Source of the DNA: Blastococcus mobilis
GTDB lineage: Bacteria > Actinomycetota > Actinomycetes > Mycobacteriales > Geodermatophilaceae
DNA: 64,000 bases
NCBI RefSeq assembly: GCF_900188025.1
Contig: NZ_FZNO01000011.1
Span: 1-64,000 of the forward strand
Reading direction: 5' to 3'
Positions within the stretch are counted from its first letter, which is position 1, and every line of letters starts with the position of its first letter. The position numbers were made by a program, and so were the translations under genes. Under the pieces are notes generated by a model. It was given only the letters and a program-made list of their open reading frames with translations. It made no database searches and was not told the origin of the DNA. Shown piece after piece: positions 35,564 to 40,605 of the stretch.

Positions 35564-36838
35564 GTGGCACGAATCGGTGAGAGTGGTGACCTGCTCAAGT
35601 GCTCGTTCTGCGGGAAGAGCCAGAAGCAGGTCAAGAAGCTCATCGCGGGCCCCGGGGTCTACATCTGCGACGAGTGCATCGACCTCTGCAACGAGATCAT
35701 CGAGGAAGAGCTCTCGGAGTCCTCTGATCTGAAGTTCGACGAGCTGCCGAAGCCGAAGGAGATCCACGACTTCCTCGAGCAGTACGTCATCGGCCAGGAC
35801 AAGGCCAAGCGGACCCTGTCGGTCGCCGTCTACAACCACTACAAGCGAATCCAGGCCGGTGGTGACCGCGCCTCCCGTGACGAGGGTGTGGAGCTGGCCA
35901 AGTCCAACATCCTGCTGATGGGGCCGACCGGGTGCGGCAAGACGCACCTGGCGCAGACCCTCGCCCGGATGCTGAACGTGCCCTTCGCGATCGCCGACGC
36001 CACGGCGCTGACCGAGGCCGGCTACGTGGGTGAGGACGTCGAGAACATCCTGCTGAAGCTGATCCAGGCCGCCGACTACGACGTCAAGCGGGCCGAGACC
36101 GGCATCATCTACATCGACGAGGTCGACAAGATCGCCCGCAAGAGCGAGAACCCGTCGATCACCCGCGACGTCTCCGGTGAGGGCGTGCAGCAGGCTCTGC
36201 TGAAGATCCTCGAGGGGACGACGGCGTCGGTGCCTCCGCAGGGTGGTCGCAAGCACCCGCACCAGGAGTTCATCCAGATCGACACGACGAACGTGCTGTT
36301 CATCGTGGGTGGCGCGTTCGCCGGCCTCGAGAAGGTCATCGAGCAGCGCACGAGCAAGCAGGGGATCGGCTTCGGTGCCGAGATCCGCGGCAAGGCAGAG
36401 ATCGCCGAGGCCAACGCCTTCGCCGAGGTCATGCCGGAGGACCTGCTCAAGTTCGGCATGATCCCCGAGTTCATCGGCCGGCTCCCGGTCATCACCAGCG
36501 TGCAGAAGCTCGACCGTGAGGCGCTGATCAACATCCTCACCGAGCCGAAGAACGCACTGGTGCGCCAGTACCGGAAGCTCTTCGAGCTCGACGGCGTCGA
36601 CCTGGAGTTCACCGACGACGCACTCGAGGCGGTCGCCGACCAGGCCATCCTCCGTGGCACCGGCGCCCGCGGCCTCCGCGCGATCATGGAGGAGGTGCTC
36701 CAGTCGGTGATGTACGACATCCCCAGCCGGGAGGACGTCGCCTCCGTGGTGATCAGCAAGGAGGTCGTCCTGGAGCACGTGAACCCGACGATCGTCCCGC
36801 GCAAGCCCACCCGCGAGCGCCGCGAGAAGTCCGCCTAG
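35564..36838 (+). CDS. clpX: ATP-dependent Clp protease ATP-binding subunit ClpX
   Basis: A 424-residue AAA+ unfoldase. The zinc-binding domain has CSFCGKSQ and CDECIDLC (C4 type). Walker A is [12 protein letters not shown], Walker [12 protein letters not shown], the pore loop GYVGEDVE, and the sensor-2 region [11 protein letters not shown]. It unfolds tagged proteins for ClpP1P2. GTG 35564 with GGAGGTCAGCAG upstream. Followed by a hairpin terminator. Confidence 0.97.
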
Positions 36839-36846
36839 CCGTACGC

Positions 36847-36887
36847 GGCAAGCGAGCCCGTCCCCGGCCAGGGGGCGGGCTCGTTGC
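36847..36887 (+). terminator. Terminator after clpX
   Basis: Imperfect long hairpin: arms GAGCCCG...CGGGCTC extended by TCCCC/GGGGG, 8 nt after the clpX stop. Confidence 0.65.
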
Positions 36888-36903
36888 CTGTGTGGGTGCT
36901 GAG

Positions 36904-36956
36904 CGTGTGCGCTGACGCCCGGTTCGAGGGCCGAAAACCGGGCGGCAGCGCACACG
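36904..36956. repeat. Long palindrome, left of the AbiEi/DUF559 gene
   Basis: Two 21-nt arms (36904-36924 and 36936-36956) complementary at 20 of 21 positions, with an 11-nt centre. The arm core GTGCGCTGACGCCCGGTT also forms the arm of the palindrome at 37942-37988 on the other side of the gene. Confidence 0.9.
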
Positions 36957-37026
36957 CCGAGGTGGGGCTGTCCACAGATTCCGGCTGAAGCGGCCACCGG
37001 AGGCCACAGCTGGACACGCTCCGTCC

Positions 37027-37950
37027 GTGGCGCACGAGGTCGAGGCGGTCGTCGGGCCGGACGGGTGGATCACCTGGGACGCGCTGACCGCGCGGGTCGA
37101 CCGGAAGACGGTGGCCAGTTGGGTCGGTGGTGGACGCCTCCATCGCATCCAGCCAGGCGTCTACGCCGTTCCCTCCGCCGCCGGTGATTGGCGGATCCGG
37201 TTGGCGGCCGCCGTCAGGGCCTGTGACGGCGTGGCCAGCCACCGGACCGCGCTGACGCTGTGGGACCTGCTGCCGCCCGAACCTCGGGCGCCGATCCATC
37301 TGACGGTGGCGCACAGCCGGAGCGGCCGCGGCACCAGTGGCGTCGCCCTGCACCGGACGCGCTGTCTCGACCAAGCGGTCCGCCGGGTCGACGGCCTCCC
37401 CGTCACGTGCGTCGAGCGAGCGGTGCTGGACTCGTGGGGTCGGCCCGCTGGCCTCACGCGGTCGGAAGTTCGCGCGGCCGCGATCGACGCCGTCCGTCGG
37501 CGACTGTGCTCCCCTCGGGACCTGCTGCGGGAGGTGGAGCGGAGGCCGTGCCTGCCCGGGCGCGCCGCGCTCGTCGACCTCGTCCGCCTGCTCGCCGAAG
37601 GATGCCGGAGCGAGCTGGAGATCTGGGGCTGCCTGCACGTGCTGCGCGGACCTGGCATGCCGGCGTTCACGCTGCAGCGGCCGGTCGAGGTAGCGGGGGA
37701 GCGGTTCGTGCTCGACGCCGCGTGCGATGAGGTGCTGCTCGCGGTGGAGATGGACGGCGCCAGCTTCCACGGCTCCCGTCAGCAGCGGGAACGGGACATC
37801 CGCCGGGACGCGCTCCTGGCCTCCGTCGGCTGGCAGACCCTCCGGTTCGGCTTCCGGCGCCTGACCGGCTCCCCGGACGCCTGCCGTCACGACATCCGGT
37901 CGACCTACCACGCCCGGCGACAGCTGCTGCGCCTGGACGGAGTGCGCTGA
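37027..37950 (+). CDS. AbiEi-like N-terminal domain plus DUF559 (Vsr-like nuclease fold) protein
   Basis: A 307-residue protein. The N-terminal 60 residues (ITWDALTARVDRKTVASWV, then GGRLHRIQPGVYAVP) match the winged-helix of AbiEi-type antitoxins, although no AbiEii toxin is adjacent. The C-terminal third has the DUF559/Vsr-like pattern: SELEIWG, VLDAACDEVLLAVEMDGASF with the Asp and ExD residues of a PD-(D/E)XK core, and GWQTLRFGFRRL. It is a common solitary gene in actinobacteria with no proven role. GTG 37027. Each side carries a long palindrome with the same arms, and the stop codon lies inside the right one. Confidence 0.8.
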   Translation: MAHEVEAVVGPDGWITWDALTARVDRKTVASWVGGGRLHRIQPGVYAVPSAAGDWRIRLAAAVRACDGVASHRTALTLWDLLPPEPRAPIHLTVAHSRSGRGTSGVALHRTRCLDQAVRRVDGLPVTCVERAVLDSWGRPAGLTRSEVRAAAIDAVRRRLCSPRDLLREVERRPCLPGRAALVDLVRLLAEGCRSELEIWGCLHVLRGPGMPAFTLQRPVEVAGERFVLDAACDEVLLAVEMDGASFHGSRQQRERDIRRDALLASVGWQTLRFGFRRLTGSPDACRHDIRSTYHARRQLLRLDGVR

Positions 37951-37988
37951 CGCCCGGTTCTGAGCACCAGAACCGGGCGTCAGCGCAC
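37942..37988. repeat. Long perfect palindrome, right of the AbiEi/DUF559 gene
   Basis: Two exact 21-nt arms (37942-37962 and 37968-37988) around a 5-nt loop. The arm core GTGCGCTGACGCCCGGTT equals the left palindrome's. It includes the stop codon of the DUF559 gene and ends 4 nt before the convergent valS stop, so it may act as a two-way terminator. Confidence 0.93.
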
Positions 37989-37992
37989 CCGC

Positions 37993-40605
37993 TCAGTCCG
38001 CGACCGGTGCCAGGACGACGTCGACCGTGAGCGGGCCGGTGCCGGCCACCACCGACAGCGTGGCGATGCGGCCTGCGTCGACCAGGTCCGACCGGGCGGC
38101 GTCCACGAGGGCGACCTGCGCCTCCGGGGCGATCACGGTCACCGTCTCGACGTCGGCCCGCATGGAGACCTTGGCGTCGGACTTCGCCTTGCGCACCCCG
38201 GCCAGCGCCTCGGCCGCCGCCGTCACCACGGCGGGGTCACCGCCGGTGGGCAGCTCGGAGGTCACCGGCCACGGCGCGCGGTGCACCGAACCCGCCTGCC
38301 ACCACGACCACACCTCCTCGGTCACGAACGGCAGCACCGGCGCGAACAGGCGTAGCTGCACCGCGAGCGCCAGCGCGAGAGCCGCCTGAGCAGACTCCGC
38401 CGCCGCGTCGGACCGGTACGCCCGGGACTTCACCAGCTCGACGTAGTCGTCGCAGAACGACCAGAAGAACGTCTCGGTGACCTCGAGGGCGCGCGTGTAG
38501 TTGTAGGCGTCCATCGCGGCGGTCGCCTCGTCCACCACGGTGGCCAGCGACGCCAGCAGTCCCTGGTCGATGGGCTCGGTGATCTTCCCGGCGGCCGCCT
38601 GCAGGTCGACCGAGCCGGCGCCCAGCCCCAGCACGAACTTGCCGACGTTGAGGATCTTCATGGCCAGCCGCCGGCCGACCTTCATCTGCGCCTCGTCGAA
38701 CGGCGAGTCCGCCCCCGGCCGGGCACCCGCGGCACGCCAGCGGACGGCGTCGGTGCCGTAGCGCTCGAGGACGTCGATCGGCGTGGTGGCGTTGCCCTTC
38801 GACTTCGACATCTTCTTGCGGTCCGGGTCGACCACGAAGCCGGAGATCGTGGCGTGCGTCCAGGGCACCGTGCCGTGCTCGAAGTGCGCGCGGACGACGG
38901 TGGAGAACAGCCAGGTCCGGATGATGTCGTGGGCCTGCGGCCGCTGGTCCATCGGGAAGACCTTCGCGAACAGCTCCGGGTCGGTGTCCCAGCCCGAGGC
39001 GACCTGCGGCGACAGCGACGACGTCGCCCAGGTGTCCATGACGTCGGGGTCGGCCATGAACCCGCCCGGCTTGCCGCGCTGGTCCTCGGTGTAGCCGTCC
39101 GGCACGTCGGACGACGGGTCGACCGGCAGCGCCGACTCGGGTGCCAGCAGCGGGTCGGAGTAGTCGGGCTCGCCCTCGGCGTCCAGCCGGTACCAGACCG
39201 GGAACGGCACCCCGAAGAAGCGCTGGCGGCTGATCAGCCAGTCGCCGTTGAGGCCCTCGACCCAGTTGTCGTAGCGGTGCCGCATGTGCTCGGGCACCCA
39301 CTGGATCTCCCGGCCACGCGCGACGAGGGCGTCGCGCAGGTCGGCGTCCCGGCCGCCGTTGCGGATGTACCACTGGCGGGTGGTGACGATCTCGAGCGGG
39401 CGCTCGCCCTTCTCGAAGAACTTCACCGGGTGGGTGATCGGCTTCGGCTCACCCTCCAGGTCGCCGGACTCGCGCAGCATTTCCACGATCCGCTGCTGGG
39501 CACTGAAGACGGTCTTGCCCGCCAGCTCCGCGTAGGGCTGCGCGGGCACGTCGGCCGGCGGTTCGGCGAGGAGCCGGCCGTCCCAGCCGACGATCGCGCG
39601 GGTCGGCAGCTGCAGCTCCCGCCACCAGGTCACGTCGTTGAGGTCGCCGAAGGTGCAGATCATCGCGATGCCGGAGCCCTTGTCGGGCTCCGCGAGCCGG
39701 TGCGCGAGGACCGGCACCTCGACGTCGAACAGCGGCGTCCGCACCGTCTGACCGAACAGCGGCTGGTAGCGCTCGTCGTCGGGGTGGGCGACCAGGGCGA
39801 CGCAGGCGGGGATCAGCTCGGGCCGGGTGGTCTCGATGAAGACCGGGCCGGAGGGGCCGGCGAAGGCGATCCGGTGGTAGGCGCCGGGGCGCTCGCGGTC
39901 CTCGAGCTCGGCCTGGGCCACGGCGGTCCGGAAGGTGATGTCCCAGAGGGTCGGCGCCTCCTGGGCGTAGGCCTCACCGCGGGCGAGGTTGTGCAGGAAC
40001 ATCCGCTGCGCCGTGGCCCGCGAGGACTCCGAGATCGTCCGGTACACGTTCGACCAGTCGACCGAGAGCCCGACCCGGCGCCAGAGCTTCTCGTACTCGG
40101 CCTCGTCCTCCTCGGTCAGCCGCATGCACAGCTCGACGAAGTTCCGCCGGGAGATCGGGAGCTGGTCCTTCGACGGCTTCTCCGGGGGCTCGAACGACGG
40201 GTCGTAGGGCAGCGCGGGGTCGCAGCGAACGCCGTAGTAGTTCTGCACCCGGCGCTCGGTCGGCAGCCCGTTGTCGTCCCAGCCCATCGGGTAGAAGACG
40301 TGCTTGCCGCGCATCCGCTGGTAGCGGGCGACGAAGTCGGTGTGGGTGTAGCTGAAGACGTGTCCCACGTGCAGCGAGCCGCTCGCCGTCGGCGGGGGAG
40401 TGTCGATGGAGTAGATCTGCTCGCGCGGCGTCGCGGGGTCCAGCGCCGCGGCCCGGTCGAAGGCGTAGGTGTCGTCGGACGCCCAGCGCTCGACCCACTT
40501 CTCCTCCAGCCCGTCGATCGACGGCTTCTCGGGTACGCCGACGGTCGCTCCCGGGTCGGCCGCAATCTCGACGGCACCTTCCGGGGTCGCGATGCGGGTA
40601 TCCAT
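37993..40605 (-). CDS. valS: Valyl-tRNA synthetase
   Basis: An 870-residue class I synthetase. The HIGH motif is [15 protein letters not shown] with PPTAS before it, the editing (CP1) domain carries [20 protein letters not shown], and [12 protein letters not shown] is the KMSKS loop. A helical anticodon-binding domain and C-terminal coiled coil follow. ATG 40605 is used; an in-frame ATG at 40614 gives three more residues and neither has a clear ribosome site. The enzyme charges tRNA-Val with valine. It is convergent with the DUF559 gene and divergent from yccF. Confidence 0.96.

Follow-up and report, generated by a model that had tools for sequence, protein, structure and literature searches.

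The gene lying between clpX and valS in Blastococcus mobilis raises the question of why a nuclease-like gene should be bordered on both sides by long palindromes that resemble each other, and whether gene and palindromes belong together. The original prediction, drawn from the window (the whole 64,000-nt stretch of DNA that was analysed), had proposed that they form an undescribed palindrome-nuclease unit, inserted between clpX and valS and recalling the REP/RAYT units. The features of the locus are the following.

35564-36838, + strand: clpX, the left flanking gene
about 36847-36888, + strand: separate G+C-rich hairpin downstream of clpX, lacking a T tract, read from the sequence
36903-36957, no strand: left palindrome, 22-nt arms, 95% complementary, 11-nt gap
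36907-36953, no strand: 47-nt core of the left palindrome, GTGCGC...GCGCAC, with the start codon 70-120 nt downstream
37027-37950, + strand: 307-aa DUF559 gene, AbiEi-like N-terminal half and DUF559/Vsr-fold nuclease
37027-37176, + strand: residues 1-50, winged helix within the AbiEi-like region in the structure model
37183-37596, + strand: residues 53-190, nucleotidyltransferase-like fold, comparable to the second AbiEi domain
37609-37923, + strand: residues 195-299, Vsr-type nuclease domain
37942-37988, no strand: right palindrome, 47 nt, 21-nt arms, 100% complementary, 5-nt gap
37993-40605, - strand: valS, the convergent right flanking gene, 870 aa from the start used

Both palindromes of the original prediction were recovered, at 36903-36957 and 37942-37988, and both exceed chance: the best palindrome scores were 19.5 (left) and 21.0 (right), against null means of 7.4 and 6.4 and 95th percentiles of 10.5 and 9.0, the null being 340 windows per side inside such DUF559 genes, with sizes slightly unlike those of the scored window regions. 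The arm that they had been said to share corresponds to 82% identity over 51 nt between the two, and the stop codon TGA of the gene (37948-37950) does lie inside the right palindrome. As to the statement that clpX has a terminator of its own, a separate hairpin follows clpX; a T-tract terminator was not found, the pattern search for intrinsic terminators with T tracts and for sigma-70 promoters having returned neither. Hairpins of this clpX type are also present in relatives; in some of them (L075, L081, L095, and L096) another palindrome replaces the hairpin. The window genome (G000) holds two more DUF559 matches over the cut-off, at C73:78507-78713 and C57:2852-2977.

The combination of an AbiEi-like region with a Vsr-type domain was borne out by the predicted structure of the protein (pLDDT 91.8), in which residues 1-190 take the AbiEi fold and residues 189-299 the Vsr/DUF559 fold. 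Residues 1-190 matched AbiEi (6y8q, Z 14.0) and Rv2827c (1zel, Z 10.2), and residues 53-189 matched MenT1 (8an5, Z 10.1), while the C-terminal part matched a DUF559 protein (3hrl, Z 13.4), the homing endonuclease I-Bth0305I (3r3p, Z 12.4, rmsd 2.4 over 96 residues), and Vsr (1cw0, Z 10.2). The Pfam search gave DUF559 (PF04480) with 35.8 bits against a cut-off of 20.6 and MTES_1575 just above its cut-off, whereas AbiEi_4 stayed under it (12.9 vs 25). Pfam and NCBIfam matches were limited to REase, DUF559, DUF2726, AbiEi-type, and weak unrelated models, with no match to a Y1/HUH transposase in either. Conservation of D230, E241, D243, G244, H248, D257, and D261 is 96-100% in an alignment of 83 proteins that includes the one of the window, so the nuclease is probably active.

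The AbiEi-like half could also indicate a defence or toxin-antitoxin gene of the AbiE kind, whose palindromes would mark host DNA or control its release. The PADLOC AbiEi models do match the window protein (best 2.2e-25), and anti-phage proteins were matched weakly at their nuclease domains. Of what defines the type IV AbiE systems, however, only the AbiEi fold was found: the gene has no adjacent AbiEii toxin gene as partner, its neighbors being clpX and valS. Homologues were absent at E 1e-5 from 72,556 plasmid records and from 50,697 phage records, and PHROGs gave no significant match. We therefore consider a defence role very improbable.

Sequence search yielded 46 relatives of the gene, which together with the window make up a lineage of 47 loci. 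In 42 of them the right palindrome has its start exactly 8 nt ahead of the gene end, and the core of the left copy, wherever a good one was found, begins 113-152 nt ahead of the start codon. The ends of the palindromes are common to the loci and the interiors vary; left and right interiors share 9.8 of 14 positions within loci vs 6.9 between loci (z 11.5), a comparison covering the 34 of 47 loci in which both copies have the required ends, 13 being omitted for a left or right copy that failed the end criteria. Paired interior positions change together, the pairing of right-copy interiors amounting to 0.74 vs 0.54 after shuffling. Scanned against the internal-window null (85 of 90 genes used), the left palindrome exceeded the 95th percentile in 39 of 59 genes of the window lineage and in 16 of 26 diverged paralogues, and the right one in 49 of 59 and 13 of 26, respectively. 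The recurrent association of palindromes and nuclease gene is thus real. At one locus (L017:2876-3956) the two palindromes are unlike, the left interior being that of the same-genome copy L044 and the right another. Two loci carry the labels Bacillus sp. AZ43 (L009, unverified) and Chloroflexi bin (L038), although their genes group with Geodermatophilaceae; the clpX of L009 is 95% identical to that of the window, and both taxon labels are probably wrong, as judged from sequence.

The paralogues, about 38-47% identical to the window gene and often located at clpX-valS in opposite orientation, carry palindromes unrelated to the window type, yet left and right are matched again. Comparison of the left palindrome with the right region gave z 10.2 for all 26 scanned and z 4.7 when restricted to the 8 in which left and right copy both exceed the null; examples of matched pairs are L137 (palindrome GGCATAGGTACC), L086 (palindrome ACCGTTGAACCCC), and L142. 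The first 1.3 kb from clpX contain a diverged DUF559 gene in opposite orientation in 20 genomes (L084-L103). In L085, L092, L098, and L100, and also in L064, the DUF559 match is split across frames, so that the gene is possibly broken there. In the class-wide survey, a match at E <= 1e-25 was present in 37 of 196 genomes, and matched pairs (both alignment scores >= 23) were found at 11 of 29 out-of-family loci, where the gene was called automatically by longest frame, wrongly for some loci; the majority of the 11 are of the CCATGATCAT...ATGATCATGG type. Many actinobacterial genomes encode several DUF559 proteins with AbiEi-like halves.

The genomic placement of the gene was examined through its flanks. 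By blastn of 3-kb flanks, the 47 lineage loci fall into about 12 groups, a number that a more sensitive search could lower by merging single ones. The copy of L040 is inverted at clpX-valS, the protein tree, covering 46 of 47 rows, implies at least 12 changes among seven place labels, and the sisters L033 and L045 (support 100/98) occupy different places with similar palindrome interiors. Twenty clpX-valS regions for which no gene was listed were fetched. Three contain a DUF559 gene or fragment after all (L064, L065, and L080), and L076 has a DUF559 fragment that was found with a diverged query; seven fetched regions end before valS (L066, L068, L069, L073, L079, L082, and L083), and in four clpX and valS are separated by about 1 kb that gave no DUF559 match (L070, L074, L077, and L078). 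In the remaining five relatives, clpX and valS are almost adjacent (L067, L071, L072, L075, and L081). Four of these five short empty gaps hold an extra palindrome, L071 having the clpX hairpin only, and in L067, which belongs to the genus of the window, a single GTGCGC-type palindrome stands where others carry palindrome, gene, and palindrome. Target-site duplications or a sharp insertion edge were not readable. In L078, two palindromes that resemble each other are spaced by 0.9 kb (138-1060 from clpX); the interval gave no DUF559 match and perhaps contains a gene too diverged for detection.

These observations bear on two statements made with the original prediction. Fixation of the locus in all relatives had been named as a finding that would speak against a unit, and the locus is not fixed, with about 12 flank groups, the reversed copy of L040, and the five relatives in which clpX and valS nearly touch. 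Insertion between clpX and valS agrees with those five relatives, but the description is too narrow, the gene with its palindromes occurring at about 12 places and in other lineages too. The association of palindromes and nuclease therefore comes with evidence of movement and of joint change.

We then consider palindromes apart from the gene. The genome-wide search for the arm that had been suggested with the original prediction found the exact 18-nt arm only at this locus in the 5.09-Mb window genome, and a looser pattern, GTGCGCTGA-N-TCAGCGCAC, added three 47-nt palindromes on C38, C54, and C76 with a reversed-pattern control of 0. None of the three adjoins a DUF559 gene, and two lie between convergent genes. 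Allowing up to 3 mismatches gave two decayed, likely members (C48 and C61) and three unconvincing matches, the reversed control giving 2 per strand. The window genome thus has one gene unit, three clear solo copies, and probably two more decayed ones, and with so few the activity of the unit may lie in the past.

Across the family, the 47-nt pattern was present in 41 of 96 genomes, gene-flanking copies counted (reversed-pattern control 0), at 0-7 exact copies per genome, and it was absent from all 195 other genomes of the class, which lie outside the family of the window. Among the matches listed, at least 52 copies of 47 nt (46- and 48-nt copies omitted) in at least 30 family genomes are, by position, distant from the DUF559 matches listed. 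No DUF559 match was found within 1.5-2 kb at 21 of 23 such solo loci; the two exceptions are L110, where another DUF559 gene ends, and L112, where the match is weak (E 0.008). The pattern, gene-flanking copies again counted, is found in 27 of 46 genomes with an A-type gene (a full-length match of at least 54% identity, among the matches listed) vs 14 of 50 without (Fisher P 0.004), the genome with a gene fragment (G035) being placed among the latter. Solo interiors agree with the gene-flanking interiors of their own genome at 7.2 of 11 positions and with those of other genomes at 5.9 of 11 (permutation P 0.00005, 16 genomes), an excess that is partly shared ancestry, as in G084-G086, and that is reversed in three of the 16 genomes (G022, G007, and G027).

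Presence and absence could also be followed at a single solo site behind a helicase gene. It carries a GTGCGC-type palindrome in G000, G029, and G018, in the last after an extra gene. Among 40 further genomes, four have the GTGCGC type (G002, G026, G025, and G027, the last three partly decayed), 12 have other palindromes, and 24 have none, including the close relatives G031, G030, and G028. The spacers at this site are too diverged for an exact insertion edge to be read. Elsewhere, two solo palindromes surround a flagellin-like gene (L123:2001-4496), the same genome having a further pair on C52 with a spacing of 2.1 kb, and two surround a small secreted-type frame in L120. These pairs were not accepted as units; the L120 interiors are unlike each other.

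The solo interiors exhibit a pairing of 0.78 vs 0.47 shuffled, and their mismatches are about equally G.T (29 of 124) and A.C (31 of 124), in an analysis of the 52 solo copies that repeated one made on 36 hand-picked ones. This equality is what selection on DNA, not RNA, is expected to leave, and it disfavors an RNA hairpin as the selected form. An RNA element was also rejected as a candidate, its Rfam matches being far under the gathering scores and mostly microRNA models on hairpins. The same numbers weigh on the view that the palindromes are bidirectional terminators, that is, hairpins behind genes that recombination between repeats has homogenised, with the nuclease gene a mere neighbor. 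In actinobacteria, candidate terminators that are G+C-rich hairpins lacking T tracts are common, many of the copies are downstream of genes, and L075, L081, and others have such a palindrome at the usual position of the clpX hairpin. Against this stand the lack of a G.T excess over A.C, a length of nearly always 47 nt with fixed ends and a reversed-pattern control of 0, the matching copy that is also found upstream of the gene, the gene lineages whose palindromes are unrelated to one another yet matched within the lineage, and the absence of the pattern from 195 other class genomes. Taken together, these points make terminators a quite improbable explanation.

A link between dispersed palindromes and particular DUF559 genes was also visible, and more strongly, outside the family of the window. 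Twelve class genomes, ten of family f19 and two of other families, were searched for the CCATGATCAT palindrome, which was dispersed in 8-81 copies in all ten f19 genomes (control 0) and absent from both of the others. In one of them (G192), a manual tally of the interiors of the 37 listed out of 42 copies gave 21 of CAACCT, 11 of CAATGATC, and five of CGGC type, and three of its four DUF559 matches carry these three types: the gene on C206 has a CAACCT-type palindrome on both sides, that on C228 a CGGC-type one on both sides, and that on C236 ends in half a palindrome of the CAATGATC type, interrupted by other DNA. The interruption lies near the centre of this last palindrome (L202:2434). In G212, the gene at 7587128 has GTTCCCT copies on both sides and eight more such copies are dispersed, and G230 has three DUF559 genes with such palindromes on both sides. 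At the 20 DUF559 loci of G212 and G230, to which the 7587128 gene does not belong, a palindrome was found at one end at least in 16, at both ends in six, and at neither in four; L243, L252, and L253, where the match covers the C-terminal half only, are among the palindrome-bearing loci. Subfamilies and genes do not correspond one to one, some genes being without dispersed exact copies and some solo types without a gene seen, and the f19 palindrome subfamilies match only partly those flanking their own DUF559 genes. The other finding named in advance as speaking against a unit, arms that are ordinary terminators without a link to DUF559 genes, was not what emerged: solo copies do exist, and the left/right match, the lineage-specific palindromes, and the cognate subfamilies tie the palindromes to DUF559.

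An alternative closer to the protein itself is autoregulation, with the palindromes serving as operators for an AbiEi-type repressor whose nuclease domain would be incidental, the upstream copy silencing the gene and the downstream copy helping looping or termination. Both AbiEi and Rv2827c are autorepressors that bind inverted repeats within their promoters (PMC7319586); the left palindrome precedes the start codon by 70-120 nt, and the mismatch pattern points to selection at the level of DNA. Operators would not, however, be expected as solo copies without a nearby DUF559 gene, two of the three in the window genome between convergent genes, nor in 8-81 copies per f19 genome, nor would gene and palindromes be expected at about 12 places; in G212, 17 of 22 copies examined had no enclosing long frame, judged on reading frames only. 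As the whole explanation autoregulation is unlikely, although it can coexist with a selfish system.

We regard it as rather probable that the locus represents a selfish DNA system like REP/RAYT, built on a Vsr-fold nuclease, for which binding, cutting, and enzyme-driven movement are inferred. This reading starts from the observed architecture, the left/right match, the maintenance of the palindromes, the several places, presence and absence, the solo copies, and the partly cognate subfamilies. Speaking against it are the persistence of the pattern in 14 of 50 family genomes that lack a full-length A-type gene, the restriction of matched pairs to 11 of 29 out-of-family loci, the four palindrome-free loci of G212 and G230, the few copies in the window genome, and the loose correspondence between subfamilies and genes. 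The gene and its two palindromes would be one unit of such a system, with a nuclease unrelated to that of REP/RAYT. Its AbiEi-like N-terminal half would bind the palindrome with one protomer per arm, and the tethered C-terminal Vsr-fold nuclease would nick or cut the palindrome, or a hairpin extruded from it. Through copying or repair at the break the palindrome would reach further intergenic sites, and on rarer occasions the whole palindrome-gene-palindrome unit would be moved or homed. Palindrome and protein would change together, leaving each gene lineage with a palindrome of its own. The N-terminal half is put forward as the palindrome reader by analogy, because AbiEi is reported to bind two 23-bp inverted repeats with 3 bp between them (PMC7319586), close to the arms and the length found here.

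The undescribed, REP/RAYT-like palindrome-nuclease unit of the original prediction is thus supported by the roughly 12 places, the left/right match, and the cognate subfamilies, its action being predicted from sequence. A wider version, which we offer tentatively as a possibility somewhat short of even, is an independent and widespread actinobacterial counterpart of REP/RAYT, in which DUF559 nucleases with an AbiEi-like reader multiply their own palindromes through a homing-like double-strand or cruciform cut and co-evolve private specificities. The literature searched, open-access with few subscription papers and no preprints, contained no description of such a system and none of a role for DUF559 proteins with AbiEi-like halves, to which the palindrome-nuclease reading gives a testable one. 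If true, dispersed bacterial palindromes, which are otherwise linked to HUH transposases, would have behind them a second class of enzyme with a different chemistry, and the many gene lineages with private long palindromes would be a possible source of diverse long-site DNA readers.

Several known systems share features with the present one. The IS200/IS605 elements also have a gene with hairpins at each end, but their enzyme is unrelated, neither Pfam nor NCBIfam giving a Y1 transposase match for the protein here. The likeness to EDxHD-type homing endonucleases such as I-Bth0305I consists in the fold of the nuclease domain (Z 12.4) and in the empty sites, which here keep one palindrome. It differs in that the gene here is bracketed by two copies and its presumed target is uninterrupted, in the AbiEi-like half, and in that no phage record contains a homologue of the window protein. 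AbiEi and Rv2827c share the fold of residues 1-190 (Z 14.0 and 10.2) and bind paired inverted repeats (PMC7319586), as would be predicted by analogy here; in the present protein this region is fused to a nuclease domain, and palindromes stand at both ends of the gene and elsewhere in the genome.

REP/RAYT comes closest. Both systems have a nuclease gene between two palindrome copies, dispersed extragenic copies, gene-specific palindrome types, and compensatory changes (PMC2817692 and PMC3733652). RAYT genes were described as always bordered by two REPs (PMC2817692) and later also found bordered by other inverted repeats (PMC3733652). Two flanking copies were found here, and so were dispersed cognate copies, though few in the window genome. 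REP/RAYT usually exceeds 100 copies per genome, whereas here there are 0-7 exact copies in the family and at most 81 in f19. The palindromes here are about 47-58 nt long, and the right copy contains the stop codon, unlike in REP/RAYT. The GTAG tag of that system is replaced by symmetric GTGCGC/GCGCAC ends here and by CCATGATCAT ends elsewhere, and its HUH/Y1 transposase by a Vsr-fold enzyme with an AbiEi-like half. Any kinship of the nuclease to RAYTs, which the original comparison might suggest, was not upheld, the enzyme here being unrelated. The present system acts like REP/RAYT but is not a member, because the defining HUH enzyme and tag are absent; its layout is already known from REP/RAYT, and its enzyme and palindromes are unrelated to those.
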